Virus record (IMG/VR): IMGVR_UViG_3300025312_000160
Span: 1-26,735 of that record
DNA: 26,735 nucleotides
Source: a virus
Reading direction: 5' to 3' (one strand)
The number at the start of each line of letters is the position of its first letter. Positions within the stretch are counted from its first letter, which is position 1. The position numbers and the translations under genes were made by a program. Of the stretch, positions 1-26,613 are shown in pieces. A model generated the notes under the pieces. It saw only the letters and a list, made by a program, of their open reading frames with translations. It made no database searches and was not told the origin of the DNA.

Positions 1-1
1 T

Positions 2-1804
2 AAACGATGGGATAGTCTTTTCGTGCGCATCGGAAAGTTTAGCGGCAATGTGGCGATTGACGGAACGTTATCCATCGACTCGATCATTACAGCTCTTCGA
101 TTGACGTCGAACCTCACCGTTGATGGCACAGTCACGGGCGATACGCTCGTCGGCGATTGGACCATGACCGGCAATCTGCAATCGACTGCGCAGGGGTCTC
201 TTGCCGGTGTAGCGTCTGCAAAATTCTATTATCAACCCTCGACCGGCAATGCCGTGCTCGGTGCATGGGGCAAGGATGCCTCGACAACGGGGACAATCAG
301 CTTCTATCTTGCAAAATCCGATGGAAGTGGAGGTGAAATAGAAGTCAGCATTGATTCGGCGAGCACAAATTTCACGGGCAATGTTCTCCCCTCAGCCGCC
401 TCAACGTATGCGCTTGGTTCTGCAGTGCTACCATGGAGGGCAAGCCACTACGATTCACTCCTTTCCACGTATCTGAACGGTCGCGTGATCCGCATGGGTT
501 CAGCCTTGTCCGACACGACGAAGTTTCTTCTTAACTCCGATACCACCTCTCTCGTTGCCATGCAGTGGGAGTTAGACGGCAAGACTCCCATGACGCGCAT
601 GTTGACGGTGGCGGCCAATGCTCCATTGGCTTCGTCGGCAGGCGCTCAAGATTTGTCAGCCGACAGAACGTGGACGCTCTCTGCTGACACAACGACAGCT
701 CTTTCAGGACTGACGACGCTCTACCAGAATTCACTCAAGGCCAGCATATCTTCACTCGGCTCGGCTGCTTACGTTGACTCGACTCGTATCGCCTATCAGG
801 ACAAAACCAACACTTTCACGCAAGCGCAGACGTTCAATAGCACCATCAACCTCCAGACCATATCAAGCGCGGCCTCATTCACGGGGACGGTCGCTACAGT
901 GGGCGATGTTACAGTAGGCGGCATTGCTTTGCTGGACACAATCCGTAATTCGCTTACGTCAGTGGTGGTGGATGATTCGCTGACGGTGACGGGACTTGCT
1001 ACCATCGCAGGTGATGTGGCGGTAAATGGTGGTGACTTAACAACTACGCAGACTACGTTTGCATTGCTCAACGTAACCCCTACGACGATAAATGCCTTCG
1101 GAGCTGCAACTACGATAAGCATGGGCGCACTCACGGGGACGACCACAATCAACAATGATCTGATTGTTGGCGATGAATTGATAGTGAATGGGACGGGAAC
1201 AAGTTCATTTGCAGGTCCCATCTCCGGCACTACGGTAACGGCAAGTTCTTATGGAATCTTCGGCGGGGGGGATATTGTCGTGGCTTCCGGTGGTATGGCA
1301 AAGATTATAATTGATGGCGCAGACGCTACCGAGACAAACGCAGAAAACGCCATCTTTGAAAAAACCGCCAACCTGAATTACACTTCGCGGGCATCCCATA
1401 TCTTTGTGATTGATAACGATGCCAACGAATCAAATAGAACCTTTTCAATTCGTGCGGACAGTGTTGAATCATCCGATATTTTCACTCTCTCTAAGGCGGG
1501 CGCACTTACCGTCGCCGCAGGACTCTCCGGCACTACGGTAACGATGACAGGTAGTCTTGATGTTGATGGCGACGTAGCGGACACTTCGGCCTTCACCACG
1601 ACTGCAACGCGAGCCGCAGTCTATATCGCGGGCGCGCTCTCAACAGACAAGTACACGGTCAGTCACCGAAACGCAAGCGGAACCGAGACATTGCCGGTAG
1701 CGGACGATCAAATGTCCTATTATGCCAAAGCTGACAGCTTGATTGTGCTGAGACAGGCTGGAACAACAAGCGGACTGAAGTTCTCATACAGCAGATTCAA
1801 ATAA
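2..1804 (+). CDS. Phage fibre/appendage structural protein, 5' end outside the window
   Basis: The reading frame is open to the left edge. The first in-frame start-like codon is a GTG at 23, but it has no ribosome site, and the codons before it read KRWDSLFV, which resembles the internal segment around WRASHYDSL. I therefore infer a gene cut by the window rather than a start at 23. About 600 residues are visible, rich in Thr, Ser, Ala and Gly, with repeated short beta-prone blocks (LTVDGTVTGDTL, LTVTGLATIAGDVAVNG, NAFGAATTISMGALTGTTTINN). Such blocks are typical of phage tail-fibre and tail-spike shafts, which trimerise as beta-structured rods at the virion tail. A 20-base exact direct repeat encodes LSGTTVT or ISGTTVT at two sites (1221-1240 and 1524-1543). 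No obvious chaperone or enzyme domain is seen at the C-terminus. The lysis-type genes follow directly. Confidence 0.75.
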   Translation, partial: KRWDSLFVRIGKFSGNVAIDGTLSIDSIITALRLTSNLTVDGTVTGDTLVGDWTMTGNLQSTAQGSLAGVASAKFYYQPSTGNAVLGAWGKDASTTGTISFYLAKSDGSGGEIEVSIDSASTNFTGNVLPSAASTYALGSAVLPWRASHYDSLLSTYLNGRVIRMGSALSDTTKFLLNSDTTSLVAMQWELDGKTPMTRMLTVAANAPLASSAGAQDLSADRTWTLSADTTTALSGLTTLYQNSLKASISSLGSAAYVDSTRIAYQDKTNTFTQAQTFNSTINLQTISSAASFTGTVATVGDVTVGGIALLDTIRNSLTSVVVDDSLTVTGLATIAGDVAVNGGDLTTTQTTFALLNVTPTTINAFGAATTISMGALTGTTTINNDLIVGDELIVNGTGTSSFAGPISGTTVTASSYGIFGGGDIVVASGGMAKIIIDGADATETNAENAIFEKTANLNYTSRASHIFVIDNDANESNRTFSIRADSVESSDIFTLSKAGALTVAAGLSGTTVTMTGSLDVDGDVADTSAFTTTATRAAVYIAGALSTDKYTVSHRNASGTETLPVADDQMSYYAKADSLIVLRQAGTTSGLKFSYSRFK

Positions 1805-1827
1805 AAACAAAGGGGGCAATAATCGCC

Positions 1828-2154
1828 ATGCTTGAATTCCTTCAACACGCTCCGCTGTGGGTGCAGATTATCAGCGTCGGAAGTCTTTCGACGCTCGGCC
1901 TCTATATTATCCTGCTCATCGTTCGCTCCGTGATTGGCTTGCGGACGAAGACATTCAACGGATCGACAAAGAATATCGAGATGTCCTTGACAACGATAGC
2001 CGCAAACACGACGGACATGAAAGAACTCATGGCAATGGGATTTGGAGACTCACGGGAACGATTGGAAAAGATCGACAAGAATCTTGGCCTTGCAATGGAC
2101 CGACAGATTCACAGGGAAGACCTTGCTGGCCTCAAACGAAGGAGAAAACAATGA
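1828..2154 (+). CDS. Small single-span membrane protein, lysis-cassette neighbour
   Basis: The 108-residue product has one strong hydrophobic segment at about residues 10-33 (VQIISVGSLSTLGLYIILLIV). It is followed by a hydrophilic, probably helical tail with many charged residues and a very basic end (GLKRRRKQ). I do not recognise a named family. N-terminal anchor plus helical tail is the shape of many phage holin-like and accessory lysis proteins, and the gene is the first of four that end with the lysozyme. A G-rich stretch (AAAGGGGGC) lies about 11 bases before the ATG, a long but usable spacing. The stop codon overlaps the next start (ATGA), so translation is probably coupled. Function is inferred only from shape and position. 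Confidence 0.7.
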   Translation: MLEFLQHAPLWVQIISVGSLSTLGLYIILLIVRSVIGLRTKTFNGSTKNIEMSLTTIAANTTDMKELMAMGFGDSRERLEKIDKNLGLAMDRQIHREDLAGLKRRRKQ

Positions 2155-2585
2155 GTCCTAAAAAGCCGGATGTCTCATTGATGGAAGCCAGAGACACATC
2201 TGAGGCGATCAACTACATATTTATCGGAGTGAAGTTTTTCCTCTTGAAACATACCTTGAAGACACTGCTTGTCCTGATGCTCATGGCCGTAGGGCCTATC
2301 TACGTCGGATGGGATTATTTCACTTCGGCCAAAGTGAAGATCGAAAAGGCACTTCCACTGGATGAGGACACGGGTTGGAGGTTCTCGATCATGCCGGAGG
2401 CATACGCCTCGACAGGAGAGAAGCCAAACGAAATACGGATTGACGGCAAGCTCTATGGCTATTATGATCCTCTCTTTACTGTCTATGTCATGCAAGGCCG
2501 TCAAAAGTTATTCATCTACGACAAAGAGACGCGCGAAAGTATTGTCATGAAAATACCGGAATTAGGCTCACAAACGAAGGAGTAA
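2151..2585 (+). CDS. Membrane-anchored protein with exposed C-terminal domain
   Basis: The start ATG overlaps the previous stop (ATGA) and has an AAGGAG site about 6 bases upstream. The 144-residue product has a hydrophobic segment near residues 35-55 (LKTLLVLMLMAVGPIYVGW) after a polar N-terminus. A soluble domain of about 90 residues follows (GWRFSIMPEAYAS, DGKLYGYYDPLFTVYVM). This looks like a membrane-tethered periplasmic or surface domain. No catalytic motif is evident and I do not recognise the family. Its place between two membrane-protein genes and just ahead of the holin/lysozyme pair suggests an envelope or lysis role, such as a spanin-like or regulatory part, but this is inference. 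Confidence 0.7.
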   Translation: MSPKKPDVSLMEARDTSEAINYIFIGVKFFLLKHTLKTLLVLMLMAVGPIYVGWDYFTSAKVKIEKALPLDEDTGWRFSIMPEAYASTGEKPNEIRIDGKLYGYYDPLFTVYVMQGRQKLFIYDKETRESIVMKIPELGSQTKE

Positions 2586-2591
2586 CGGGTT

Positions 2592-2990
2592 ATGGACTTT
2601 ACACAATTTGGACTTTCGGCCATTCAGCTTGTGGTCTTTATGATGTTCGTCACGGCGGTCATTGAGGTCATCAAAGGCATCTCCGCGAAAGGCGTCTTTG
2701 GTATTGTTAAGGAATTGGGTTATACGCTGTTCAAGAACCAGCCACTTTCGCCAGAAACGATTAGAACACTCAACTTCATCATTGCCCTCATCTTTCTTCG
2801 GTCGTTCGAATATGGAGCTATGGCGAGGCTCCTAGGCATTGATACGATGACATTTGGACCCTTTGCCTACTGGCTGGACTATATAGCGACTGCCTCAGTC
2901 ATCTACATGGGGGCAGATTATCTCTTCAGTTGGTATTGGAAAATCAAAGCAAGGGCCAATGAAGTAGCGGAAGGAAAAAAGGATGCCTGA
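2592..2990 (+). CDS. Putative holin (multi-span membrane protein)
   Basis: The 132-residue protein has three likely transmembrane segments: about residues 10-28 (IQLVVFMMFVTAVIEVI), about 58-75 (LNFIIALIFLRSF) and about 90-115 (FAYWLDYIATASVIYMGADYLF). It ends in a charged tail (KARANEVAEGKKDA). Small size, several spans, a polar C-terminus and an 8-base overlap with the lysozyme gene together fit a holin, which forms the inner-membrane lesion that releases endolysin. The family was not identified by a signature motif, so the holin call depends on topology and context. An AAGGAG sequence lies about 14 bases before the ATG, weaker spacing than its neighbours. Confidence 0.65.
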   Translation: MDFTQFGLSAIQLVVFMMFVTAVIEVIKGISAKGVFGIVKELGYTLFKNQPLSPETIRTLNFIIALIFLRSFEYGAMARLLGIDTMTFGPFAYWLDYIATASVIYMGADYLFSWYWKIKARANEVAEGKKDA

Positions 2991-3405
2991 TCTGACATTG
3001 CTCGCGGCTGAATTGACGCGAGATGAGGGACTCCGCTTGAAGCCCTACTTGGATTCCGTCGGAAAGACCACAATTGGCATCGGGCGTAATCTCACGGATC
3101 GGGGGATATCCGAGGACGAAGCAACATACCTGCTTGCAAACGACATTGCAGAGGTTCTCCAGGAACTTGACCGTCAACTGGGTTGGTGGAGAACAATGAA
3201 CGAGCCGCGTCAACGTGTGCTGGCAAATATGTGCTTCAATATGGGCATTGGAACATTGATGACGTTCAAAAATACGCTTTTCAACATGCGAGAAGGCAAC
3301 TATACGTTGGCTGCTTCCGGCATGAGAGACTCTCGATGGTACACCCAGGTCGGCGTGCGGGCTGAAAGATTGGCTGTGATGATGGAAACTGGAAAAGAAT
3401 TTTAA
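2983..3405 (+). CDS. Endolysin, T4-type lysozyme (glycoside hydrolase 24)
   Basis: The 140-residue product carries the T4-lysozyme catalytic pattern: Glu15 in RDEGLRLKPY, Asp24 in YLDSVG and Thr30 in TTIGIG. The 9- and 6-residue spacings are the same as Glu11, Asp20 and Thr26 of T4 lysozyme. The later block (RQRVLANMCFNMGIGTLMTFKNTL) and the RWYTQVGVRAERL end are also typical of the family, and the length is normal for compact phage lysozymes. The enzyme cleaves the N-acetylmuramic acid to N-acetylglucosamine bond in peptidoglycan. No signal peptide is visible, so export would depend on the putative holin, whose gene overlaps it by 8 bases. The gene appears complete, which argues against an intron interrupting it. 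Confidence 0.95.
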   Translation: MPDLTLLAAELTRDEGLRLKPYLDSVGKTTIGIGRNLTDRGISEDEATYLLANDIAEVLQELDRQLGWWRTMNEPRQRVLANMCFNMGIGTLMTFKNTLFNMREGNYTLAASGMRDSRWYTQVGVRAERLAVMMETGKEF

Positions 3406-3407
3406 TC

Positions 3408-3660
3408 GCCGTCCGCTTCTGGCTTGATCTCGGCAGGTTCCGCCCCGGACGGCACTTCCTCTCTGCCCCAATCTCAAGGAATGTCTTCATCTTGACGATG
3501 TGCTCAAGGCTCTTCCTGTGGAAGTGCCGAACAGTTCTCAAGCGTAAACTACTGTTTCCACTATTTTACTTTCCGTGTCTAAAGTAAATTATCGTCCGCC
3601 TCGAATCCTGATTTCGGCAGGCCCACCTCCGGACGAAGACCCCTCTGCAAAGTAGGTGGG
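3408..3660 (+). repeat. Two related pseudoknot-capable modules (3408-3482 and 3592-3660)
   Basis: Both modules read: CGTCCG arm, a short hairpin (CUUG/CAGG in the first, CCUG/CAGG in the second) with loop A-U-Y-U-C-G-G, the returning CGGACG arm, then a conserved CTCTGC. In the second copy the segment after the hairpin (CCCACCT, 3622-3628) pairs with AGGTGGG (3654-3660) across the returning arm, giving a pseudoknot. In the first copy the equivalent segments are GTTCC (3437-3441) and GGAAT (3478-3482), also complementary although the sequence differs. Conserved loop bases with changed but complementary arms suggest a duplicated RNA fold rather than chance. Confidence 0.5.
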
Positions 3661-3702
3661 GATGGAAAAGTTTGGCAACGAACTCCCGACTACGTTGCGC
3701 TG

Positions 3703-3729
3703 AACGCCTCGGCTTGTCGCTGGGGCGTT
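3703..3729 (+). terminator. Strong 11-bp hairpin, possible rho-independent terminator after the lysis genes
   Basis: AACGCCTCGGC pairs with GCTGGGGCGTT around a 5-base loop (TTGTC), with two G-U pairs. TTCGCTT follows, so the T-run is short (four T, two of them inside the stem). It may end the lysis transcript about 300 bases after the lysozyme stop, or be one helix of the larger RNA. Confidence 0.4.
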
Positions 3730-3751
3730 TTCGCTTGGTGGGAAAATATCT

Positions 3752-3859
3752 CAATCGGTAATTTTTACCGTCTCATTTACTACGTTATTGCAGGGGTTTC
3801 CGCTCGTTTGTAATTATTACAAACGGCATACTTCTTGATTTTGTAATCTTTACCGATTG
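3752..3859. other. Nested AT-rich palindromes
   Basis: CAATCGGTAA (3752-3761) is the exact reverse complement of TTACCGATTG (3850-3859). Between them lie a local hairpin that reuses the first arm (CGGTAA, TTT, TTACCG; 3756-3770) and a perfect 9-bp palindrome, CGTTTGTAA/TTACAAACG, with loop TTA (3805-3825). The left arm can therefore pair either locally or with the distant arm. This could be part of the RNA described above, an operator cluster or a replication-origin element. The sequence alone does not decide between these. Confidence 0.45.
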
Positions 3860-3874
3860 CAGAATATGTCTTGT

Positions 3875-4032
3875 TTCCACCTCCGGTTCTGCGTATCATC
3901 AAACGCGGAACCACTTCGATGCGCGAATTTAAACCCGACATATTCTCCCACGTCTCTTGTAGTCCTTCCTTCGCCGGATTCTCCGGATCGCATGGAGTGG
4001 AACCGCACTATGAGAGCGTGGGAGTTTTTATT
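3875..4032 (+). ncRNA. Pseudoknot RNA element, copy A (upstream of the HNH gene)
   Basis: Helix P1 pairs TTCCAC-(C)-TCC (3875-3884) with GGAGTGGAA (3994-4002). Helix P2 pairs CTCCCACG plus TCTC (3945-3956) with GAGA plus CGTGGGAG (4012-4024), with one bulged G. P1 and P2 interlock as a pseudoknot. A small hairpin, CCGGA/TCCGG (3974-3986), sits just before the 3' strand of P1, and the element ends in TTTTTATT. The same order of helices, and 25 of 32 identical bases starting at the P2 5' strand, occur in the leader at 6283-6408. The GTG start of the HNH gene is 12 bases after this tail. Confidence 0.55.
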
Positions 4033-4043
4033 GATGTGCTCTG

Positions 4044-4718
4044 GTGAAAAAATTAAGTCTTATTAATCAGCATTTTGGATCGTGGACCGTTCTCAGGTCT
4101 TATGGGTATCATCACGAGCATACGCATTGGGTTTGCCGATGCAAGTGTGGTACCACAAAAATAATCCCGTCTGGGAATTTGACATGTGGACTGTCAAGAC
4201 AATGCGCGTCGTGCGGATATAAAAACATGATTGGATGGAAGTATGGCTTAGCTAGTAAACAAACGCCACGCGAATTACGAACTTGGAGGTCGATGATGTC
4301 GCGCTGTTTTAACCGGAATAAACCTGAATACAGATATTATGGCGATCGCGGGATAACGGTGTGTAGCCGTTGGAAGAATTCTTTTGAGAACTTCCTCGCT
4401 GATATGGGGCCACGTCCGAAGGGAATGTCCATCGACCGAATCAATAACGATGGAAACTACGAGCCGAGTAATTGCCGATGGGCGACACCAAAACAGCAAG
4501 CCATGAATACTAGGTGGTTCCGTCGTCCTGAGGGAATGAGATTCGCAGGGCTTGTTTGTCTTTCGCGGGCGGAAACCCCCAAGGGAAATCTGTATGCAAA
4601 CACGTATTTTCTTTTCCGCTGTGATTGTGGGCAAGAGAAAATTATTCGGTTTTCAAGTGTGCGGCGCGGTGTAACAAAACACTGTGGTTGCCGTCAGGGT
4701 GAAAGGGAAGTGGCCTGA
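4044..4718 (+). CDS. HNH homing-type endonuclease with N-terminal zinc-binding region
   Basis: The 224-residue product begins with the [16 protein letters not shown] block and a Cys cluster (CRCKCG, then CASCG) seen in phage HNH/AP2-type endonucleases. A central HNH-like region has [30 protein letters not shown] and KQQAMNTR. The C-terminus repeats a second Cys-containing block ([23 protein letters not shown]). Such enzymes nick or cut DNA and move as free-standing homing genes. The start is GTG with no clear SD site. The upstream ATG at 4034 is in another frame and soon stops. The stop overlaps the ATG of a truncated replication gene (ATGA). It sits next to structured RNA, but the lysozyme upstream is intact, so I do not read this as an intron-borne enzyme. 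It more probably inserted between genes. Confidence 0.88.
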
Positions 4719-4849
4719 TGGCGTGGATGGAACTGCACCAAGAATTCTACAATCATCCAAAGGTTCGACGGTTTGCGGCTATTCTCAAAGAGCGTGTCCC
4801 GTTCGGGCGCGGGGTTTTTATTTTTCCCATCTACAAGAGGATTACTTGA
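4718..4849 (+). pseudogene. Truncated N-terminus of a phage replication (replisome-organiser-type) protein
   Basis: The ATG overlaps the HNH stop and opens a 43-residue frame starting [20 protein letters not shown]. This is the characteristic beginning of phage replication-initiation/replisome-organiser proteins, which are normally well over 200 residues. After about residue 25 the likeness ends, and the frame runs into the G-rich/T-rich segment at 4805-4826 and stops. The stop TGA overlaps the TTG start of the next gene. I interpret it as a remnant truncated by a deletion or insertion, with the intact replication gene now at 6413. It might still be translated as a small coupled peptide. Confidence 0.55.
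4805..4826 (+). repeat. Partial copy (C) of the pseudoknot element's 3' end
   Basis: A 22-base segment, GGGCGCGGG then G then TTTTTATTTTTC, matches the end of the leader at 6387-6408 with one difference (A in place of the tenth base) and resembles 4015-4032. Here the G-rich arm can pair with the bases just before it (GCGTG-T-CCCG, TT, CGGGCGCG), giving a terminator-like hairpin followed by T-runs. The upstream parts of the full element are not recognisable. Confidence 0.55.
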
Positions 4850-5409
4850 AATTCGAGATTAAACATCGGTTCAACAATGCTGTTCTGTTCTCGCTTAAGA
4901 CTGACTCGCTCAAATTATGCGTTGAGGCGGCGGTAAAATCCCATGCGTACCTCTCCGGTGCGAACCTCTCCGGTGCGGACCTCTCCCATACGGACCTCTC
5001 CCATACGGACCTCTCCGGTGCGACAGGTTTCAACCCAAATTTTTACACGCCACTTTTCATGCTCTTAGACCAACCTGGAAAAATTCGGGCGTACAAATTG
5101 GTCAACAAGTATCACGAGGGACCATTCAACGGCGGTATCAAATACATCGTCGGCAAGGTGGTGAAGGTAACAAGAGTCAACAGCGACGTGAATGTGCAGT
5201 GCGGATTTGGCATTAATGTAGCTACACTGAATTGGTGTATGAAAGAATGGTGCAAGGGTCGGAAGATTCTCTTAGTGGAGTTCACGGCAAAAGACATTGC
5301 CGCCATACCGTCAGGCACAGACGGGAAATTCCGCGTTCGCAAGTGTAAAGTTATCCGCGCGTTGGATTTGAAGAAAATCGGACTTACAGTTCCGAAAGAA
5401 AAGAAATAA
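4846..5409 (+). CDS. Pentapeptide-repeat-containing phage protein
   Basis: I choose the TTG at 4846 because an AGAGG site precedes it by 5 bases. The protein would begin (M)KFEIKHRFNNAVLF, the usual opening of a common phage protein with this design, whereas the frame upstream is uncharacteristic. The product is 187 residues. Residues about 30-60 hold six pentapeptide units of the A(D/N)LSx type (AYLSG ANLSG ADLSH TDLSH TDLSG AT), which form a right-handed beta-helix turn. The C-terminal part of about 125 residues (YKLVNKYHEGPFNGGIKY, VGKVVKVTRVN, FRVRKCKVIRALDLKK) is a separate domain common to these phage proteins. The biochemical role is unknown. The start overlaps the stop of the preceding remnant (TTGA). 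Confidence 0.8.
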   Translation: MKFEIKHRFNNAVLFSLKTDSLKLCVEAAVKSHAYLSGANLSGADLSHTDLSHTDLSGATGFNPNFYTPLFMLLDQPGKIRAYKLVNKYHEGPFNGGIKYIVGKVVKVTRVNSDVNVQCGFGINVATLNWCMKEWCKGRKILLVEFTAKDIAAIPSGTDGKFRVRKCKVIRALDLKKIGLTVPKEKK

Positions 5410-5418: not shown

Positions 5419-6030
5419 ATGAAACCCCAACTCACAACCAAAGCATATTTTTCTAGGCATCGTTCTGCTTGCATTGACGCTAAACAATATGCGCTCAAAT
5501 TCAAGACCGCACATGAGGCGTGGCAGAAATGCAAACGTGCTAATTGGATGCTGTGGGCTGTATATCAGGACACGAAACTTGTCAATCAAATCGGCAAGGC
5601 GACCTTCGTTGGGCTTGCAATTACATTCGCAGAACGGGCGTTGCCTGAGTTTGAAAAGAAATATCCCAATGATGCGCGACCGAGAGAAAAAATCAGGGCC
5701 GCGAAAACGTGGCTTAAGCGGAAAACGAAGAAGAACCAAGAGATTTGCGCCAGTGCCGCCAGTGCCACCCATGCCGCCAGTGCCGCCTATGCCGCCAGTG
5801 CTGTCAGTGCTGTCAGTGCCGCCGATGTCACCAGTGCCGCCTATGCCGCCCATGCTGCCATGGATGCCGCCGCCAGTGCCGCCAGTGCCGCCAGTGCCGC
5901 CAGTGCCGCCTATGCCTTCCATGCCGCCAGTGCTGCCTATGCCGCCAGTGCCGCCTATGCCGCCAGTGCTGACGAAAGACTTTGGCAAGCCAAAGTAGTG
6001 CGGCGAGCAATTAAGAATCCATTCAAATAA
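5419..6030 (+). CDS. Imm5-like protein with low-complexity Ala-rich repeat
   Basis: The 203-residue product has an N-terminal domain with AWQKCKRANWMLWAVYQD, IGKATFVGLAITFAERALPEFEKKYPND and KIRAAKTWLK. This is the pattern of phage and bacterial proteins annotated as Imm5-type putative immunity proteins. Residues about 110-190 are almost entirely ASA, AYA and AHA repeats made of GCC AGT GCC-like codons, followed by a short conserved-looking end (RLWQAKVVRRAIKNPFK). In this family an Ala-rich helical stretch sits between the two parts, here strikingly expanded. The role in the phage is unknown. The stop overlaps the next start (TAATG), and an AGAGGAT site precedes the ATG. Confidence 0.7.
   Translation: MKPQLTTKAYFSRHRSACIDAKQYALKFKTAHEAWQKCKRANWMLWAVYQDTKLVNQIGKATFVGLAITFAERALPEFEKKYPNDARPREKIRAAKTWLKRKTKKNQEICASAASATHAASAAYAASAVSAVSAADVTSAAYAAHAAMDAAASAASAASAASAAYAFHAASAAYAASAAYAASADERLWQAKVVRRAIKNPFK
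5748..5980 (+). repeat. In-frame short tandem repeats (GCCAGTGCC / GCCTATGCC)
   Basis: About 230 bases are built from 6- to 12-base units with a GCC, AGT/TAT/CAT, GCC rhythm inside the Ala-rich part of the Imm5-like gene. All differences keep the reading frame (Ala alternating with Ser, Tyr, His, Val or Asp). The near-perfect units should expand and contract by slippage. The other frames of the stretch are also open, which explains the long spurious reading frames there on both strands. Confidence 0.85.
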
Positions 6031-6245: not shown

Positions 6246-6277
6246 TTGACAGGATGCTAAAAAAAATTGCATATTAT
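6246..6277 (+). promoter_or_regulatory. Candidate sigma70-type promoter ahead of the replication gene
   Basis: A perfect -35 hexamer, TTGACA (6246-6251), is followed by an A-rich spacer and either CATATT after 18 bases (6270-6275) or TATTAT after 20 (6272-6277). Transcription would start near 6282-6285, at the first strand of the structured leader at 6283. The -35 begins inside the end of the preceding gene's region. Confidence 0.5.
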
Positions 6278-6282: not shown

Positions 6283-6408
6283 GTAAGTTCGGAACGGTGC
6301 TAAACAATCTACCACATACAACCCCGCGTCCCTTTCAGCCCTTTCTTTGCCAGCTTCGGCTTGCATCGTTCGGACTTACTCTGATTGGGCGCGGGATTTT
6401 TATTTTTC
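6283..6408 (+). ncRNA. Pseudoknot RNA element, copy B (leader of the replication gene)
   Basis: P1 pairs GTAAGT and GAACG (6283-6296) with CGTTC and ACTTAC (6367-6379). P2 pairs CCCGCGTCC (6323-6331) with GGGCGCGGG (6387-6395), crossing P1. A UUCG-capped hairpin (6349-6364) lies directly before the 3' strand of P1. The element ends ATTTTTATTTTTC, five bases from the ATG of the replication gene, and no SD site is visible. Topology and order match copy A at 3875-4032. The central P2 pair is A-U in A and G-C in B, and P1 has unrelated sequence but is still complementary. It could be an attenuator or translational regulator, or a stand-alone RNA of about 125 bases ending in a terminator. Confidence 0.6.
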
Positions 6409-6412
6409 TGCC

Positions 6413-11929: not shown

Positions 11930-11958
11930 TTGACATTACAATATCTGTTTGGTAGAAT
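11930..11958 (+). promoter_or_regulatory. Strong sigma70-type promoter for the Y-like RNA/TROVE unit
   Basis: TTGACA (11930-11935), a 17-base spacer and TAGAAT (11953-11958): a perfect -35 and five of six bases in the -10. Transcription would start near 11965, about ten bases before the first RNA unit. The spacing and fit are the best of any promoter I found in the window. Confidence 0.8.
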
Positions 11959-11975: not shown

Positions 11976-12039
11976 GGGATGGCGTAGATTACGGATACTT
12001 CTCCTAGAGAAAGAAAACCCGTAGTCGCTTGTTCCTCCC
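11976..12039 (+). ncRNA. Y-RNA-like unit 1
   Basis: The closing helix is GGGA-(bulged U)-GG (11976-11982) with CC-UCCC (12034-12039). An asymmetric internal loop has CGUA on the 5' side and GCUUGUU on the 3' side. The upper helix is GAUUACGG (11987-11994) with CCGUAGUC (12018-12025), 8 bp with one G-U, and the loop contains a small UUCUC/GAGAA hairpin. A T-rich stretch follows the closing helix. The layout (closing helix, asymmetric CGA-like/GC..UU loop, inner helix, large apical loop) recalls the Ro60-binding end of Y RNAs. No database comparison was possible. Confidence 0.7.
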
Positions 12040-12050: not shown

Positions 12051-12115
12051 GCCGATGGCGTAGATTACGGATACTTCTCCTGATAAAGAAAACCCGTAGT
12101 CGCTTGTTCCTCGGC
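12051..12115 (+). ncRNA. Y-RNA-like unit 2
   Basis: Unit 2 starts 75 bases after unit 1 and shares its core almost exactly. The closing helix is different in sequence but fully paired: GCCGA-(U)-GG (12051-12058) with CC-UCGGC (12109-12115). The upper helix GAUUACGG/CCGUAGUC (12063-12070, 12094-12101) is identical to unit 1, with a 23-base A- and pyrimidine-rich apical loop. TTTAATTTT follows the closing helix. Confidence 0.7.
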
Positions 12116-18343: not shown

Positions 18344-18967
18344 TCATATACGCAACTCCGCATGTGCATTCTCCCGCAACACTGCATGTGCATTCCCCCA
18401 CAACTCCGCATGTGCATTCCCCCACAACACCGCACGTGCATTCTCCCGCAACACTGCACTTGCATTCTCCTGCAACACTGCATGTGCATTCTCCCACAAC
18501 TCTGCATGTGCATTCTCCCACAACTCCGCATGTGCATTCCCCCGCAACTCCGCATGTGCATTCCCCCACAACACCGCACGTGCATTCTCCCGCAACACTG
18601 CACTTGCATTCCCCCACAACTCCGCACTTGCATTCCCCCACAACTCCGCATGTGCATTCTCCCGCAACTCCGCATGTGCATTCTCCCACAACTCCGCATG
18701 TGCATTCCCCCGCAACTCCGCATGTGCATTCTCCCACAACTCCGCATGTGCATTCTCCCGCAACTCTGCACTCGAATTCCCCCGCAACACCAGATACAGG
18801 TTTGCCGAGCGTGACGATTCAGCGCCGCACTCCAATACAACGCGGCCGTAGACTTCGCAAATACCTGTAAGTTTGACCCGCACGGTCGCGCGGACTTCCA
18901 CATCTTTCTCGATGCGATTGTTGAGCGCATCCCATTCGGCCTGAGAGTTGACTACAATCTGCGTCAT
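18344..18967 (-). CDS. Protein with 17 tandem 8-residue repeats
   Basis: AGGAGA precedes the ATG. The 207-residue product has an N-terminal domain (MTQIVVNSQAEWDALNNRI, RATVRVKLTGICEVYGRVVL) and then 17 units of consensus A-(E/V)-L-(R/W)-(E/G)-N-A-(H/R/S), ending AELRI. The regular alternation of small and hydrophobic residues fits a beta-solenoid. I recall similar repeats in phage proteins of unknown function, with no known activity. The unit is 24 bases, and the codons are nearly identical between copies. The gene begins the coding part of the leftward operon after two small genes. Confidence 0.8.
   Translation of the reverse strand: MTQIVVNSQAEWDALNNRIEKDVEVRATVRVKLTGICEVYGRVVLECGAESSRSANLYLVLRGNSSAELRENAHAELWENAHAELRGNAHAELWENAHAELRENAHAELWGNASAELWGNASAVLRENARAVLWGNAHAELRGNAHAELWENAHAELWENAHAVLQENASAVLRENARAVLWGNAHAELWGNAHAVLRENAHAELRI
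18350..18780 (-). repeat. 24-bp coding tandem repeat array
   Basis: About 17 units of 24 bases (plus strand CAACTCCGCATGTGCATTCTCC with variants) lie wholly inside the repeat-protein gene and stay in frame. Alternative bases occur mainly at fixed positions (C/T in CTCC/CCCC, TCCGC/CACCG), so copies have mixed and recombined. Open frames on the plus strand over this stretch are by-products of the repeat. There are no spacers, so this is not a CRISPR array. Confidence 0.9.
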
Positions 18968-19019
18968 GATTGTCTCCTATGAATGAGCGATAAATCGGCC
19001 TGTTGGATGTGATGGATGA

Positions 19020-19154
19020 TTAGGACTGTGGATAACGACCACGTACCTCGTTGTCATCAGAAACAGTAAAGGTAACGTCATTATCATTGCCGGTTGGGTC
19101 GCGCAATTCCTGACGGTCGATTGCCTCTGCGCGTTTCGTGTCCTTCGACTTCAT
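19020..19154 (-). CDS. Small acidic protein, 44 residues
   Basis: The minus-strand frame encodes MKSKDTKRAEAIDRQELRDP and then TGNDNDVTFTVSDDNEVRGRY. Composition is protein-like, and the frame fills the gap between two genes, but the SD is poor (AATGATGAATGTTCC before the ATG). The gap from 18968 to 19019 shows nothing else. Function is unknown. Confidence 0.45.
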   Translation of the reverse strand: MKSKDTKRAEAIDRQELRDPTGNDNDVTFTVSDDNEVRGRYPQS

Positions 19155-19184
19155 GGAACATTCATCATTAGAGTGGGTGAAGGT

Positions 19185-19403
19185 TTATTGTTGATTGACT
19201 GCAATGATTTTAAAATTGCTCGCGGACCATTTTTCGAAATTGTCGGCTAATCCTAAAAATGCTGATTGAGCATCGTGTAGGGTTGCGAAATTCATTGTGG
19301 GACGATTGCACGCGCTGTCTAATTCGATGATCAGCTCATTGTCTGTGTCAACGCAAACACTGGCATAATCTGAACGTATCTGATATGTTGTGTTGTGTTT
19401 CAT
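19185..19403 (-). CDS. Small hypothetical protein, first gene of the leftward operon
   Basis: A strong AGGAGGT site is 5 bases from the ATG. The 72-residue product (MKHNTTYQIRSDYASVCVDT, NRPTMNFATLHDAQSAFLGLADNFEKW, ASNFKIIAVNQQ) looks like a small alpha/beta domain with no motif I recognise. Being the first gene after the divergent region with the best SD, it is probably abundantly made early. An inverted repeat lies 28-71 bases upstream. Confidence 0.65.
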   Translation of the reverse strand: MKHNTTYQIRSDYASVCVDTDNELIIELDSACNRPTMNFATLHDAQSAFLGLADNFEKWSASNFKIIAVNQQ

Positions 19404-19430
19404 GGCGACCTCCTATGTTTGGTGCATGTA

Positions 19431-19474
19431 AACTGCTAAAATGGTTTCACAAAGTCAATTTTTGATTAGCAGTT
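19431..19474. promoter_or_regulatory. Inverted repeat, candidate operator, in the divergent control region
   Basis: AACTGCTAA (19431-19439) and TTAGCAGTT (19466-19474) are exact reverse complements spaced 26 bases apart. They lie in the 222-base gap between the leftward operon and the terminase genes. The position, shortly upstream of the first leftward gene, fits a regulator binding site. No clear leftward -10 is seen with the TTGACT-like -35 that falls between the arms. Confidence 0.45.
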
Positions 19475-19561
19475 AGGCATCATAAACATCAATAGACACA
19501 GGCATTTTATAACAATCGACAGCCGGTTATTATTTCCGAAAAAATCAGTGAATCGGTAAAT

Positions 19562-19591
19562 TTGACATACTCAAAAGAAAATGCGGATATT
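19562..19591 (+). promoter_or_regulatory. Candidate rightward promoter for the packaging/head genes
   Basis: TTGACA (19562-19567), an 18-base spacer and GATATT (19586-19591). It lies 34 bases ahead of the small terminase ATG. The rest of the 19404-19625 gap is AT-rich with no gene. A packaging (cos or pac) site could also lie here but shows no recognisable sign. Confidence 0.45.
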
Positions 19592-19625
19592 GGGCCAGAA
19601 ACGTAAGGCAGGCTGAAAAAAAATC

Positions 19626-19886
19626 ATGGCAAACGGAGGAAAGCGACCAGGGGCTGGCAGACCGAGAGGAAAACCCAATACTTTCACACGCACGGCGCGC
19701 GAAGCATTTCAAATTGCGTTCGACACGCTTGGAGGACCAGCGGGATTAGCAAAGTGGGCGAAGGAAAATCAAACTGAGTTCTACCGTATTTACGGTAGGC
19801 TTATTCCGGTTGAGATCGAAAACACGGGTGAAGTAACTCTCAAGGTTCGCTACGTTGATACGCCAAAGCAAGACGAAACCGATTAA
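19626..19886 (+). CDS. Small terminase-like protein
   Basis: The 86-residue product starts MANGGKRPGAGRPRGKPNTF. The KRPGAGRPRG basic opening is characteristic of many phage small-terminase or DNA-binding packaging proteins. The rest (AFQIAFDTLGGPAGLAKWAKENQTEFYRIYGRLIPVEIENTGEVTL) gives a helical core and a short beta end. It would recognise phage DNA and load the large subunit. It is shorter than many small terminases. The SD is weak. Its 3' end overlaps the large terminase by 32 bases, and the pair is adjacent as expected. Confidence 0.75.
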   Translation: MANGGKRPGAGRPRGKPNTFTRTAREAFQIAFDTLGGPAGLAKWAKENQTEFYRIYGRLIPVEIENTGEVTLKVRYVDTPKQDETD

Positions 19887-21159
19887 CGAGGAATGGGTTG
19901 ATATTCCGCGACCGCACGAAAATCAATTGCCGTTTCTGCGATCGAAGGTAAAACGGAAAATCATTCGCGGCGGGCGTCGAGGCGGGAAAACAGTAGGAGC
20001 GGCGATACTTGCATGTGAGGCTTTTCTGGTGGGCAAGCGAGTTCTCTATGCCACACCAACCTCAGACCAGATACAACGATTTTGGACAGAGATCACGCGA
20101 GCTTTTGCACATGCGGTCAAACGTGGAGTATTGAAAAAGAACGAGACGGAACATGTTATTGAAGTCGTACACAAAGAGCAGCGTATCAGAGCAAAGACGG
20201 CCTGGAACGCCGATACGCTTCGAGGTGATTACGCTGATCTATTGATCTTGGATGAGTTTCAGCTGATGAACGAGGATGCATGGGAAATTGTTGGTGCGCC
20301 AATGTTGTTAGACAATAACGGAGACGCAGTGTTCATCTATACGCCACCCTCGTTACATTCCCGCAGCGTCACAAAGGCAAATGATCCTCGTTATTGCGCG
20401 AAAATGTTTTTGAAAGCCACGGCAGATACAACCGGCCGGTGGCAAGCCTTCCACTTCACCTCATACAGTAATCCATCGTTGTCACGCAAAGCCCTGGCGG
20501 ACATCTCACATGACATGACCGACCTTGCTTTTCGGCAAGAAATTATGGCCGAAGACATTGATGCAGCTCCAGGGGCTTTATGGACACGTGAGAATATCGA
20601 AGTCAATCGCAGAACCTCATACCCTGATTTGGATTTGGTCATCGTCGGAGTCGATCCTTCAGCTACTTCCACTGGAGACGAAGCCGGTATTGTCGTAGCA
20701 GGAAGAGCGAAGAATGAATACTTCACGCTTGCAGACAACAGCATACAAGGTTCGCCGAATGATTGGGCCAAAGCGGCGGTGACAGCCTATCATGTGCATA
20801 AGGCTAACTTCATTGTTGCCGAGCAGAATAACGGCGGTGAAATGGTTGCTTCCGTTATTCATGAAGTCGATAAAGATGTTCCCGTTGAGTTGGTCCACGC
20901 TTCAAGAGGGAAAGCAACGAGAGCTGAGCCGGTGGCTGCGATCTACGAACAATCAAGAGCGCATCATATCGGAGTGTTCGGATTATTGGAAGATGAAATG
21001 GCCCTTTGGACTCCTGGGGATGCTTCGCCGAACAGAATGGATGCTCTTGTCTGGGCCTATACGAAACTTATTGAGACTGAACCGCCTTTGACATCAGCTG
21101 ACCTGCGCGCAATCGAAATCCCTGAGATGGAAGCTGTGAGCATAACCGAGAATTACTGA
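19855..21159 (+). CDS. Terminase large subunit (packaging ATPase/nuclease)
   Basis: The frame starts with TTG at 19855 inside the small terminase gene. No ATG is in frame before the Walker motif, so TTG is the best start. The 434-residue product has Walker A GGRRGGKT (39-46), Walker B LLILDEF (129-135) with catalytic Glu134, and an RNaseH-like nuclease with Asp267 in IVGVDPS, a central AEQNNGGE and Asp396 in NRMDALVWA. It drives DNA translocation into the prohead and cuts the concatemer. The length is slightly compact for a TerL, and all key residues are present. Confidence 0.95.
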   Translation: MIRQSKTKPINEEWVDIPRPHENQLPFLRSKVKRKIIRGGRRGGKTVGAAILACEAFLVGKRVLYATPTSDQIQRFWTEITRAFAHAVKRGVLKKNETEHVIEVVHKEQRIRAKTAWNADTLRGDYADLLILDEFQLMNEDAWEIVGAPMLLDNNGDAVFIYTPPSLHSRSVTKANDPRYCAKMFLKATADTTGRWQAFHFTSYSNPSLSRKALADISHDMTDLAFRQEIMAEDIDAAPGALWTRENIEVNRRTSYPDLDLVIVGVDPSATSTGDEAGIVVAGRAKNEYFTLADNSIQGSPNDWAKAAVTAYHVHKANFIVAEQNNGGEMVASVIHEVDKDVPVELVHASRGKATRAEPVAAIYEQSRAHHIGVFGLLEDEMALWTPGDASPNRMDALVWAYTKLIETEPPLTSADLRAIEIPEMEAVSITENY

Positions 21160-21161
21160 CA

Positions 21162-22541
21162 ATGGCTAAACGCCGTTCTCCCGATAATCAGCCTGCGAAG
21201 CTCCCGGAATACGGGGAATTGGTTTCCATTATGCAGTCGGAAACAGCCACAATTCTTTCCGATTATGTCAGGCAATATGTCGGCATTGTCGGCGGAACGC
21301 CGGAACCTGGGCAGGGCATCTTTATCAATTGGGACCGGGTGCTTACTACTCAGTCCTATAAAGAGCTGGCATGGTTTGATTTGTACCAGGAGGTAGAGCG
21401 AGACCCGCATGTTTTGGCTGTCATGGGATCGGCGAAAATTAACATTGCCGGTATACCGTGGGATATGTCAGCCTATCTCAAGCCGGGAGAGAAGAAACCA
21501 TCGCTAAGAAACCAAGCGATTGCGGATTTTGTCAAGAGGGTTCTGACTGATACGGGGTATTTCCCGCAGCACATATACAATCTGATGGGCGCACTCGGCA
21601 AAGGATTCGCCGTCAGTGAGATTGTGTATGATACAGTAACCGGACCAGGTGTGAGGATCAAGCAGATTCTCAATCGTCCGCAGCGCAGATTTCAATTTGA
21701 TGCGGTTGATCGTTCCTTGAAACTTCGGGACATCAAGAATCCCTACTACGGTACTCCGCTACCGGATAAGAAGTTCGTCGTGCATCGTGTATCGGCTGAA
21801 TGGGACAATCCGTTTGGAGACGCAATAGACCAGAGTTTGTACTGGATGTGGCTCTTCAAAAAGACCGTTTGGAAATACTGGATGATGCACCTCAATGTCG
21901 CTTCATCATCAATTCCCTTGGTGCAGCATCCGGCGAAAGCTCCGCCGGAAATGAAAACTGAAGCCCTGGATATTGCAAAGATGATTCGTCAAGGAGCCTA
22001 TGGACGGCTGCCAGATAATTTCAAAATCATTTGGGCTGAGGCTGCCAACGGTCCGCAAAACGCAGAGACATACAACAATTTCATTCGGACAGTCAATGAT
22101 GAGATGTCGAAGGCCATCAACGGCCAGACTCTCACGACTGAGGCTTCTTCGGGGACAGGCACAGGGACTCAGGCTCTTGGTAACGTCCATCAGGGGACGC
22201 AGACTGCGAGAGATGTATATAGGGCGCACGGTTTTGAGGCGACACTCAATGCAACAGTCATTCCCTGGATTACAGATTTCAACTTTGCCAACGTCGAGGG
22301 ATACCCACGGTTCAGGTTCGACCTAGAAGACCCCGAAGATTTGGTGCGGGAAGCGACTATTGTCAAGATGCTTTCAGATGCCGGATATGATTTCGACCAA
22401 GAAGAACTATCAGAGAAATTCAACTATACGTTGACGAAGAAAGAACCATTGAAACTGAATCCTGCAAATCCGATTGACAAGAAGCTGGATAAACTGAATC
22501 CAGATGAACCAAAGGAGAAGGATGATGAAGAAGAAAAGTGA
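21162..22541 (+). CDS. Portal protein, Mu gp29/DUF935-like
   Basis: The 459-residue product starts 2 bases after the terminase stop. It has VERDPHVLAVMGSAKINIAGIPWDM (a portal stem-side opening), MGALGKGFAVSEIVYDTVTG, RRFQFDAVD and KKFVVHRVSAEWDNPFGD. Further on are QSLYWMWLFKKTVWKYWM, a glycine/threonine stretch (EASSGTGTGTQALGN) and a C-terminal PRFRFDLEDPEDL. The order and motifs match Mu-type portals (DUF935), which form the dodecameric ring at the DNA entry vertex. The C-terminus is acidic and Lys-rich. The last 17 bases overlap the next gene. Confidence 0.88.
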   Translation: MAKRRSPDNQPAKLPEYGELVSIMQSETATILSDYVRQYVGIVGGTPEPGQGIFINWDRVLTTQSYKELAWFDLYQEVERDPHVLAVMGSAKINIAGIPWDMSAYLKPGEKKPSLRNQAIADFVKRVLTDTGYFPQHIYNLMGALGKGFAVSEIVYDTVTGPGVRIKQILNRPQRRFQFDAVDRSLKLRDIKNPYYGTPLPDKKFVVHRVSAEWDNPFGDAIDQSLYWMWLFKKTVWKYWMMHLNVASSSIPLVQHPAKAPPEMKTEALDIAKMIRQGAYGRLPDNFKIIWAEAANGPQNAETYNNFIRTVNDEMSKAINGQTLTTEASSGTGTGTQALGNVHQGTQTARDVYRAHGFEATLNATVIPWITDFNFANVEGYPRFRFDLEDPEDLVREATIVKMLSDAGYDFDQEELSEKFNYTLTKKEPLKLNPANPIDKKLDKLNPDEPKEKDDEEEK

Positions 22542-23862
22542 GATAGTCATTGATGCTTTCAAGGCGGGTGATTATCCGCAAGGAAACTTCGGAGCCAAAG
22601 AGCTATCGGAATTAGCCTCGTCCTACGACCCGAAGAACTACGAGGCTCCGATACTCATAGGGCATCTCTCAGACCCCTCCTATAAAGGCAAGAGTTCGAT
22701 ACCGGCCTATGGCTGGATCGGCGCCGTCAAGGTCGTGGGAGATCACCTGAAGTTCGTGGCCTCACAGTTCTCCGAGCAGTTGAAGGGATTCATCAAGGAC
22801 GGATTCTACAAGAAGGTCTCGGCTGCGTTCTTCCAACCGAACGACCCGAACAATCCGACCCCTGGCAAGTGGCATCTGCATCACCTTGCTTTCTTAGGTG
22901 GTGTTCCTCCGGCGGTCAAAGGACTTGAGCAGATTGCTTTTGCTCAGATGGTCAGTGGTGGTATGGAGTTCTCGGAGATGGTAGTTGAGTTCGCAGAAGA
23001 CGGGGCTATCGAAGAGGTTGAGGAAATGGGGAAAGAGGATACGCTGAAGAACATGACGGAGTATTGCGCCAATTTCATCTCGAAGGTGGAGATGGCTCTG
23101 TCTGCGGACGTTGACGCTGAGACTCGTAAGGGCCGTATCAATCTCGCGGCGTATGACCTTCAATCAGAACTGTCTTCGTGTGTCAATGAACACTTCGCAT
23201 TTATGAACAAGATGGAAAGTGTTGGGGAGAAAAAAGAAGATGGGAAAATGGAGATGTCAGAAAAGAAAGGTTGGCTGGTCAGACTGGCCGGACGAGTTCA
23301 CGAAGTAATCACTCAAAGAAAGGAAGTCGATATGGATGCAACAAAAGAAAAAGAGTATCAGGAGAAAATCTCCACTCTTGAAATCCAGGTGAAGGAATTC
23401 GCCGAGAAGGAACGGCTGGCAAAAGAAGCTATCGCAACCACAGAGAAGGCAACCAAGGACGCGGCTGAGAAGGCCAAGTCTAATGCTCTGACCGCTGAGG
23501 TCAAGACGTTCTGCGAGACGGCGGTAAAAGAAGGTCGCATGACCCCCGCAATGGTCGAGACTGATAATCCAATCATGCTGAACCTCGCCAAAGTCGATCC
23601 TTCGGCTTTGAAATCCTTCCAGGAAAAGTATGCAAAACCCATCGTTCCGATTGGGACAGTATCGGAAATCGATCAGCATGGTGCTGACGATAAGCGACCT
23701 CAAATACTCCAAAGCGCGGAGAAGTATGCAGTAGCACACAGGGCGGACAAAGAATTTGCAGGCTTGACGGCTGCGAATGCAATAAGCCGGGCCGTGTATC
23801 TCCACAGCATTGGACAGATCAAGTTTGAGGCCGAATCAACAATCAATCAGAAAGGGGCCTGA
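22525..23862 (+). CDS. Head maturation protease/scaffold fusion, Mu I-like
   Basis: The AGGAG site is 7 bases from the ATG at 22525 (an ATG at 22522 is also in frame). The 445-residue product has an N-terminal domain with LASSYDPKNYEAPILIGHLSDP, AYGWIGAVKVVGDHLKF, GFYKKVSAAFFQPNDP and LHHLAFLGGVPPAVKGL. This is the characteristic series of Mu-I-like head proteases. A charged region follows, and then a C-terminal coiled-coil scaffold (ISTLEIQVKEFAEKERLAKEAIATTEKATKDAAEKAK), with a tail of globular appearance. Protease and scaffold in one chain shape the prohead and then remove the core. Confidence 0.85.
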   Translation: MKKKSEIVIDAFKAGDYPQGNFGAKELSELASSYDPKNYEAPILIGHLSDPSYKGKSSIPAYGWIGAVKVVGDHLKFVASQFSEQLKGFIKDGFYKKVSAAFFQPNDPNNPTPGKWHLHHLAFLGGVPPAVKGLEQIAFAQMVSGGMEFSEMVVEFAEDGAIEEVEEMGKEDTLKNMTEYCANFISKVEMALSADVDAETRKGRINLAAYDLQSELSSCVNEHFAFMNKMESVGEKKEDGKMEMSEKKGWLVRLAGRVHEVITQRKEVDMDATKEKEYQEKISTLEIQVKEFAEKERLAKEAIATTEKATKDAAEKAKSNALTAEVKTFCETAVKEGRMTPAMVETDNPIMLNLAKVDPSALKSFQEKYAKPIVPIGTVSEIDQHGADDKRPQILQSAEKYAVAHRADKEFAGLTAANAISRAVYLHSIGQIKFEAESTINQKGA

Positions 23863-23864
23863 CA

Positions 23865-24284
23865 ATGGCCACTGGAAATAACGTCGCCGGGGATGTCTGG
23901 GTAGCCCATACCCTGCCCATCACGACGACCGCGAATCTCGCGGGAAAAAGTCTTATCACGGTCGTAGGTGCTGCGGTCGCAAATGCGGCCAATAGCGTCT
24001 TCGGTGTGATCAGAGTCGATACACCCTCCGGCGACAGTGCTGACGTGAAGGTGGCGCCATCAATCGTTGAGGTTATCGTGACTGGGACAGTGACGAAGGG
24101 CGGGAAGGTCGAAGTCCTTCAGGCGACAGTGGTTGCGAACATCAACGGAACAGAAACTAACACCACCTCTGCCGGAGTTACAGATTTGGCAAGTGGATAT
24201 CCAATCGGGAAAGCGTTGTCGGGCGGCGTGGCAAATGAAACCGTCCTCGTCGCGCTGTTCCTTAACGACGGCAAGACCGGTTAA
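23865..24284 (+). CDS. Capsid decoration-type protein
   Basis: The 139-residue product begins 2 bases after the previous stop. It is rich in Ala, Gly, Val and Thr with VAHTLPITTTANLAGKSLITVV, FGVIRVDTPSGDSADVKVAPS, VEVIVTGTVTKGGKVEVLQA and GKALSGGVANETVLVALFLND. The KGGKVEV and GKAL-x-V-L-F pattern fits head decoration proteins (DUF2190-like), which stabilise the capsid lattice. Its position between protease/scaffold and capsid is canonical. Confidence 0.75.
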   Translation: MATGNNVAGDVWVAHTLPITTTANLAGKSLITVVGAAVANAANSVFGVIRVDTPSGDSADVKVAPSIVEVIVTGTVTKGGKVEVLQATVVANINGTETNTTSAGVTDLASGYPIGKALSGGVANETVLVALFLNDGKTG

Positions 24285-24295
24285 AGGAGACGAAC

Positions 24296-25336
24296 ATGAA
24301 AAGCGTTTATTATCAACGCAATCTCCAGACGGGATTGCTCGATGTGAAAGAGTTCGCGTCTGATTCGCAACTGTCGCTCTTGCGCATCTCTGACCCCGTG
24401 GCAACGAATCTTGTCCAGGGTTATACGAACGCGGAGTTGAAGGGTGACAAATTTCTTACTCCGGTCAAGATGCCGAAACGGACTGGACGATTTCCGGCAT
24501 TCGGTCAGGAAGCATTTGTGATCTCCGGTGATCTCAAGCGGGCAGTGGGTGCGAGGGTTGCACGTTTGAATGTCCAGTCAGGGTTTGTAACGCTCACGAT
24601 GGACGAATACGCTTCGGGTGTGTCGCTTGAAAATAGCGAACGTGAAGAGTGGGCGGGTGCGCCGGATATGCTCTTGAACGGCCGGTTGCTCACCAACACG
24701 GCCCGTATCAGGTTGTATCGGGAGAAGCTCCAGGCTGAAGCGATGACGACCACAACCAACTACGCATCGGGGCATTACATTTCCGGTGCTGGAAAAGCTT
24801 GGGGTGGTGCGGGATCGGGAGATCCCGTGGCAGATATGTGGGACCTCCAGGAACTCATCCTGAAAAAGAATGGCCGCTTCGGCAACGTGGCGTTCTTCTC
24901 ATGGGGTGCATGGTTGAAATTTATCAACAACACAGCAGTCCTCAATCGCATCAAATATGGCGGAAGCGCAATCAGCCCAGCGCAAATGTCCGAAGCAGCG
25001 GCAGCGCAGTTGCTGCACGTTGATGAGGTGCATGTCTGCGGTGCGGTCTATGGCACTCCATCAGCTCCGGGTTCTGACGGCGGCGTGAAGAAGTCGGCAC
25101 TGACCAAAGCCTTCTTGTGGGATTCCGTGCAGTCGAACAACGCTGGCATCATCATTCGTGGTTCGGGTTCCGGGATCGAATCTGCATTCGGATATACCTG
25201 GGAACATCAGGCGTATCCAAAGGTCGAGAGTTACTACGAGAACCAGACCAAATCGCAGGTATGGGATGAGCAGCACGTCTTCAACCCAGCAATCACTGCG
25301 AACGAAGCCGGTGCAATGTATTATTCACTCGCGTAA
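24296..25336 (+). CDS. Major capsid protein
   Basis: AAGGAG precedes the ATG. The 346-residue product lies directly after protease/scaffold and decoration genes, exactly where capsid genes are found in this gene order. Blocks such as VKMPKRTGRFPAFGQEAF, VTLTMDEYASGVSLENSEREEW, LLTNTARIRLYREKLQAEAM and FLWDSVQSNNAGI look like HK97-fold elements. No N-arm cleavage site is obvious. I did not recognise a specific capsid family by motif, so the assignment rests on position, length and fold-like features. Confidence 0.82.
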   Translation: MKSVYYQRNLQTGLLDVKEFASDSQLSLLRISDPVATNLVQGYTNAELKGDKFLTPVKMPKRTGRFPAFGQEAFVISGDLKRAVGARVARLNVQSGFVTLTMDEYASGVSLENSEREEWAGAPDMLLNGRLLTNTARIRLYREKLQAEAMTTTTNYASGHYISGAGKAWGGAGSGDPVADMWDLQELILKKNGRFGNVAFFSWGAWLKFINNTAVLNRIKYGGSAISPAQMSEAAAAQLLHVDEVHVCGAVYGTPSAPGSDGGVKKSALTKAFLWDSVQSNNAGIIIRGSGSGIESAFGYTWEHQAYPKVESYYENQTKSQVWDEQHVFNPAITANEAGAMYYSLA

Positions 25337-25353
25337 CGGGGAGGACACAGACA

Positions 25354-26385: not shown

Positions 26386-26397
26386 AGAGGAAAGCGC

Positions 26398-26610
26398 ATG
26401 GCTAAATTCATTATCAATACTGCGCAGACAAAAGCATTGCGGTTGTCTGAGATTAACGGTGTGTTCATCGACGAAGTGAAGAACGATGATCTTTCGAGCA
26501 CGTTCACGGTGATGTTGAGAACAACCGGACCGATATATTTCGAGATAGCCAATACGCTTGCGGAAGCGAAGGCATTGGCCGTGCCAATCCTTGCGGCGTT
26601 GGAACAGTAG
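26398..26610 (+). CDS. Small hypothetical virion-cluster protein
   Basis: GAGGAAA precedes the ATG. The 70-residue product starts MAKFIINTAQTKALRLSEIN and continues GVFIDEVKNDDLSSTFTVMLRTTGPIYFEIANTLAEAKALAVPIL. It has two beta-like segments and a helix, a small alpha/beta domain with no motif I recognise. It is in the head gene cluster, so a structural or assembly role is likely but unproven. Confidence 0.6.
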   Translation: MAKFIINTAQTKALRLSEINGVFIDEVKNDDLSSTFTVMLRTTGPIYFEIANTLAEAKALAVPILAALEQ

Positions 26611-26613
26611 CAT

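Follow-up and report, generated by a model that had tools for sequence, protein, structure and literature searches.

The 638 bases between the lysozyme and HNH endonuclease genes of this phage (positions 3406-4043 of the window, by which we mean the whole 26,735-base stretch of record IMGVR_UViG_3300025312_000160) are tentatively interpreted, at somewhat short of even confidence, as an inter-operon control region that would halt late transcription and feed a structured, probably attenuating leader. The region looks composite, with a hairpin motif present twice, a terminator-like hairpin, three palindromes and a 3' domain ahead of the HNH gene. We counted in favor of this interpretation the excess of helices on the + strand, a 3' element (element A) that runs into five T residues beside a gene start, the copies B and C of that element, a cluster of GTAATNNTTAC sites unique in the genome, and the hairpin at 3702-3730. 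Counted against it were the apical domain of element A, which is unusually large for an intrinsic terminator, the lack of a sigma-70 promoter matching at least 9 of 12 positions inside the region, and the lack of a homologue outside this phage. If correct, a hairpin-rich, gene-free stretch of phage DNA would be divisible into terminator, operator and leader modules rather than forming a giant RNA.

The lysozyme gene, recognized by one near-full Phage_lysozyme match, extends to 3405; the HNH endonuclease gene (4044-4718, + strand; PHROG 374, E 8.5e-64) starts with a GTG at 4044, downstream of element A. A second record, IMGVR_UViG_3300025314_000111, matches the window without a difference at 1-3705 and to about 99.9% at 18941-26735; 10,491 bases of it join both window ends. 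Because both ends overlap between the two records, the phage map closes at ~37.2 kb (about 37,226 bases). The second record breaks at 3705, within the 12-bp hairpin (3702-3730) of the gene-free region, and at 18941, near an array in which a 24-bp unit, CGCAACTCCGCATGTGCATTCTCC, recurs ~18 times (18351-18788). No gene is assigned in the large stretch around this array (17283-19625), which immediately precedes the terminase genes; the array is possibly an origin, a packaging site or a variable repeat. The phage encodes a Mu-type portal, a large terminase and a TROVE/Ro60-type protein, and its large genes are on the + strand across the genome. Two further repeat arrays are coding: a 15-bp pentapeptide-repeat array at 4944-5022, in a gene that also resembles RIIB lysis-inhibitor profiles, and a 9-bp array at 5748-5969 that encodes (A/S/Y)-rich repeats.

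The sequence-only reading had found no credible gene in 3406-4043, and the ORF list, coding scores and fold z-scores agree in describing a gene-free region that is structured on the + strand. Open reading frames inside it reach at most 69 amino acids, and the peptides tested matched nothing in Pfam or PHROG at a meaningful E-value. RNA folding of the whole region gave z = -7.0 on the + strand and -3.4 on the - strand, and z = -6.3 for 3590-4032 on the + strand. When 200-nt windows were scanned over the complete 37.2-kb map, the most strongly folded stretch of the genome fell within the region, and + strand windows starting at 3801, 3601 and 3701 held ranks 1, 3 and 4 of about 373. Compared with dinucleotide shuffles, local stems with 8 or more pairs and a span no longer than 120 nt numbered 34 on the + strand (16.8 +/- 4.4 in shuffles; 0 of 200 as many) and 17 on the - strand (11.9 in shuffles; 27 of 200), and three stems of 10 or more pairs were Watson-Crick throughout, compared with 0.04 in shuffles. 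The dozen or more helices claimed earlier are therefore present, and they exceed chance. An excess of G-U-containing stems on the + strand only fits the trace expected from an RNA read rightward; part of this excess may be compositional, because whole-region shuffles lose local heterogeneity such as G-rich and T-rich runs.

The same reading had called several of these helices long-range and interlocked. The helices are real, but many are mutually exclusive alternatives, as with 3450-3459/3520-3529 versus 3446-3453/3408-3415, and 3738-3752/3937-3951 versus 3945-3952/4017-4024. Only 24% of bases had a partner with a probability above 0.9, and pair confidence was low over the 5' two thirds of the region. 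Bases left unpaired on the + strand were 70% pyrimidine, C/U-rich rather than A-rich. A rightward, untranslated, highly structured RNA is supported by the strand-specific helix excess, together with the compensatorily changed copy of the 3' domain described below.

The 5' part of the region contains a motif of 57-60 nt at 3407-3467 and again at 3591-3649, both on the + strand, recognized by repeat search, folding and a within-genome nhmmer comparison (E 0.34). Both copies have a small CYUG/CAGG hairpin inside a C/G-rich stem. In copy 1 an 8-bp stem, GCCGUCCG/CGGACGGC (3408-3415/3446-3453), encloses a CYUG-AUYUCGG-CAGG hairpin and is followed by CCTCTCTGC; in copy 2 one outer pair differs on both sides (C-G to U-A). 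A covariance model of the motif (R3) found no copies elsewhere in 424 kb and none outside the window. A perfect 10-bp long-range helix (3450-3459/3520-3529, + strand) competes with the stem of copy 1, and an 8-bp + strand hairpin, UUUACUUU/AAAGUAAA, detected by repeat search and stem count, occupies 3565-3588. Farther downstream, the 12-bp terminator-like hairpin at 3702-3732 (+ strand; z -5.2) contains three G-U pairs and is followed by UUUUC. With a computed pairing probability of 0.96 for 3702-3730, it is a candidate for the end of the late/lysis transcript.

Three operator-like palindromes follow, at 3756-3770 (CGGTAA-TTT-TTACCG), 3805-3825 (CGTTTGTAATTATTACAAACG, with 10-bp half sites) and 3840-3859 (TTTGTAATCTTTACCGATTG). 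In the third, the left half matches site 2 and the right half reads as site 1 inverted. Their core, GTAATNNTTAC, starts at 3758, 3810 and 3843, at spacings of 52 and 33 bp; these three sites fall within 96 bp, the core occurs nowhere else in the 37.2-kb genome, and none of 100 window shuffles equalled the number of matches. Near-identical palindromes that are clustered and rare elsewhere mark multipartite operators, and operators, unlike unrelated RNA hairpins, are expected to have half-sites in common as these palindromes do, although the palindromes could instead act as RNA hairpins. The right control region of lambda is a three-operator multipartite phage operator. Like such operators, the present cluster has three similar palindromes, within about 100 bp, ahead of a transcription unit; it differs in that GTAATNNTTAC was matched to no known operator and that its repressor is only putative. 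The sigma-70 promoter scan, which covered the palindromes as well as the rest of the region, gave no match reaching 9/12 at these sites, and the weaker candidates carry no weight.

The 3' domain begins with a hairpin domain at 3861-3946 (+ strand; z -5.8), which has a 10-bp base (3861-3870/3937-3946) and a 10-bp apical hairpin with one G-U pair (3885-3894/3903-3912). Element A (3945-4029, + strand) comprises an 18-pair interrupted helix (3945-3963/4007-4024) that has tandem wobble pairs and keeps CCTTYCTTYGCC and YGCAT as conserved internal sequence; a T5 comes next and ends 14 bases before the HNH start. A covariance model built from 3861-4029 (R2) found one further place in the same genome, 6271-6402 (E 3.6e-5, filters off). 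The second copy of element A, element B (6319-6402, + strand), was also found by sequence alone (nhmmer E 1.1e-4); it too ends in T5, 10 bases before the ATG at 6413 of the next gene, and a sigma-70-like promoter lies upstream of it (6246-6275, + strand; TTGACA-18-CATATT, 10/12 match). The aligned core of A and B keeps CGTCYCTTNNAGYCCTTYCTTYGCC and YGCAT, and 5 of the 18 helix pairs are changed on both sides. Such double-sided changes numbered 0-1 in slid-partner controls and reached five or more in 18 of 500 shuffles, which for two sequences is suggestive of compensatory change rather than conclusive; the comparison is limited to two copies because no homologue exists outside this phage among the collections searched. 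A partial copy, C (GGGCGCGGGGTTTTTATTTTTC, 4804-4826, + strand), lies between the HNH gene and the next gene and agrees with element B, in its 3' arm and T-run, at 21 of 22 positions. The 22-base stretch common to the intergenic sites 4804-4826 and 6388-6410 (21/22) reads GGGCGCGGG(A/G)TTTTTATTTTTC, pointing to an exchange of terminator halves.

Both A and B combine a stable G+C-rich stem with a U-run, as intrinsic terminators do (A, 3945-4024 plus T5; B, to 6395 plus T5), and the genome's + strand has only three such long stems with T5, these two included. Their apical domain of about 40 nt is no short hairpin loop, and a simple scan for terminators whose loops measure 3-8 listed neither element. 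They resemble phage intrinsic terminators and attenuator leaders in that a G+C-rich helix runs directly into T5, in their siting either between operons or in the interval from a promoter to its first gene, and in their presence as copies in one genome. They differ from these in the apical part, with its common conserved CCTTYCTTYGCC and YGCAT, and belong to no known family. Since the second copy stands before another gene, the 3' module appears to be a reusable terminator-like leader element; the position of B between promoter and gene likewise suggests that A and B are leaders of the attenuator/terminator type. A/B would then be a leader/terminator element, apparently not described before, that a single phage employs twice.

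These modules suggest how the control region could work. Transcripts of the lysozyme gene would enter the hairpins and stop at the computed terminator-like hairpin 3702-3732. The repeats observed at 3756-3859 would probably bind a dimeric repressor that controls a local promoter, both protein and promoter being putative. A transcript starting at the palindromes, or reading through them, would begin with a structured leader (3861-4029) that ends in element A. One factor or folding state may set the entry of RNA polymerase into the gene downstream of each of the A and B leaders. Pairing of 3738-3752 with 3937-3951, a predicted alternative, would take the 5' arm of element A out of its helix and is a possible antiterminator.

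Comparison with related phages, by which covariation might have been judged, returned no homologous non-coding stretch, which leaves covariation to the two copies inside this phage. Searches by DNA, neighboring proteins, patterns and covariance models across phage, plasmid, viral and genome collections found no relative of 3406-4043 outside the phage itself. BLASTN of the region gave a single 40-base match among phages (E 0.05) and none among plasmids. When the lysozyme, a holin-like protein (2592-2990), the HNH protein, the tail protein and the capsid served as baits, no related non-coding stretch was recovered, and the holin-like and tail baits matched only the same phage. In the nearest relative, whose capsid is 72% identical, there is no lysozyme homologue and no comparable gap after the tail and lysis genes. 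Run on 22 whole records and on loci totaling 1.67 Mb, model R2 found no copy outside this genome. Several matches were rejected: three to the repeated-hairpin pattern in viral and genome contigs (L083, L085 and L197) arose by chance, being coding or an unrelated Streptomyces intergenic hairpin; two to the A/B pattern in viral contigs (L198 and L199) lacked a profile match and lay inside long ORFs; and one nhmmer match (L012) fell within a DNA-polymerase-type gene.

Other explanations of the region were weighed against these data. A missed leftward small gene or decayed gene cassette would account for the purine-rich minus strand and its A-rich unpaired bases, and the minus-strand frame at 3780-3941, which runs from an ATG and spans 75 codons from stop to stop, has a marginal but phage-like 60-codon coding score that only 3 of 300 shuffles equalled. 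The best 40-codon score, however, is at chance level (reached by 74 of 300 shuffles), the frames are short and interrupted by stops, no frame tried had a meaningful Pfam or PHROG match, the peptide of the longest minus-strand frame has no homologue in phages, and the genome carries its large genes on the other strand; we regard this explanation as improbable. A DNA-level site, either an operator cluster or a replication origin, would make the inverted repeats protein-binding palindromes and the RNA folding incidental. The three matching palindromes with their near-helical spacing (52 and 33 bp) agree with this, as does the switched skew of the region, where the purine fraction on the + strand is 0.43 compared with 0.55 in neighboring genes. 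Such a site leaves unexplained why G-U-containing helices are enriched on the + strand and not clearly on the - strand, why paired bases changed together in elements A and B, and why a + strand T-run ends both, and as the whole explanation it seems distinctly unlikely.

A single ornate non-coding RNA of about 620 nt, stable in the manner of GOLLD or ROOL and either cut from or trailing the late transcript to end at the element-A terminator, is a further possibility; the sequence-only reading had proposed a candidate ornate RNA and named these two classes for size and phage setting. GOLLD often lies near or contains tRNA genes and forms a multimeric nanocage, and ROOL is a stable RNA of high abundance. 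The region resembles GOLLD in phage setting, large size and dense folding, and ROOL in length and phage setting. GOLLD rises during lysis, and the ROOL RNA env-120 measures 659 nt (PMC12286853). Kinship with either class was not borne out. An Infernal-type check against all Rfam families, GOLLD and ROOL included, matched nothing, whether at the gathering score or with E allowed up to 5, and scans that included 3300-4150 yielded sub-threshold, chance-type matches only; ARAGORN found no tRNA in the window. The region thus differs from GOLLD in lacking a covariance-model match, a nearby tRNA and a recognized conserved 3' domain and in being modular, and from ROOL in lacking a model match and a tRNA island and in pairing with little confidence over the 5' two thirds. 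Failed membership lowers the case for one of these classes and not that for the weaker option that part of the region acts as a stable RNA. Neither a group I or II intron nor a HEARO-type RNA with an HNH gene was matched by any model up to E 5, and a tRNA-like reading of 3406-4043 likewise had no model match. A single large RNA is favored by the adjoining lysis genes, the extreme + strand folding, the twice-present motif and the clean 3' terminator. It is disfavored by the C/U-rich unpaired bases and by the failure to find relatives, whereas the model of the same phage's small RNAs finds relatives at once. Because element A also stands alone elsewhere in the genome, the 3' part behaves as a separable module. 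We therefore consider one large RNA unlikely. An undescribed class of phage RNA, a rightward ~620-nt molecule of repeated hairpin modules whose 3' module A/B is reused as a regulated terminator or leader under a common factor, seems rather unlikely as well. Where a new class or several adjacent RNAs had been proposed, the modular anatomy brings the second option closer, as several adjacent elements, and leaves one ornate RNA unsupported.

The stronger RNA result of the window is a set of Ro60-associated RNAs that is supported by covariation and has relatives in many phages. Upstream of the TROVE/Ro60 gene (12225-13562, ATG at 12225), and behind a promoter, TTGACA-17-TAGAAT, at 11930-11958, three Y-RNA-like RNAs of ~62 nt lie in tandem (11976-12039, 12052-12114 and 12126-12184). 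The Rfam scan left all three unmatched. Their covariance model (R1) has no match in 3406-4043, and a link of the control region to Ro60 Y RNA was rejected. All four pairs of their closing stems differ among the three in a compensatory manner. R1 gave 30 further matches (E < 0.01) in 15 of 17 other TROVE-phage loci. Most are upstream of the TROVE gene at distances up to about 1 kb; the exceptions lie just downstream (L102) and farther downstream (L094) of it. The 33 matches, the window's own three included, gave 30 distinct sequences, in which 96.9% of cells pair and covariation is 0.97, compared with 0.24 in shuffled and at most 0.16 in slid controls, in an alignment fitted to the model, which favors pairing. 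The Wolin group has reportedly described Ro60-linked Y RNAs near Ro60 genes in bacteria and phages, and so the tandem RNAs and their R1 relatives are probably a new set within this known kind. A bulged-cytosine feature characterizes Y RNAs (PMC4030889).
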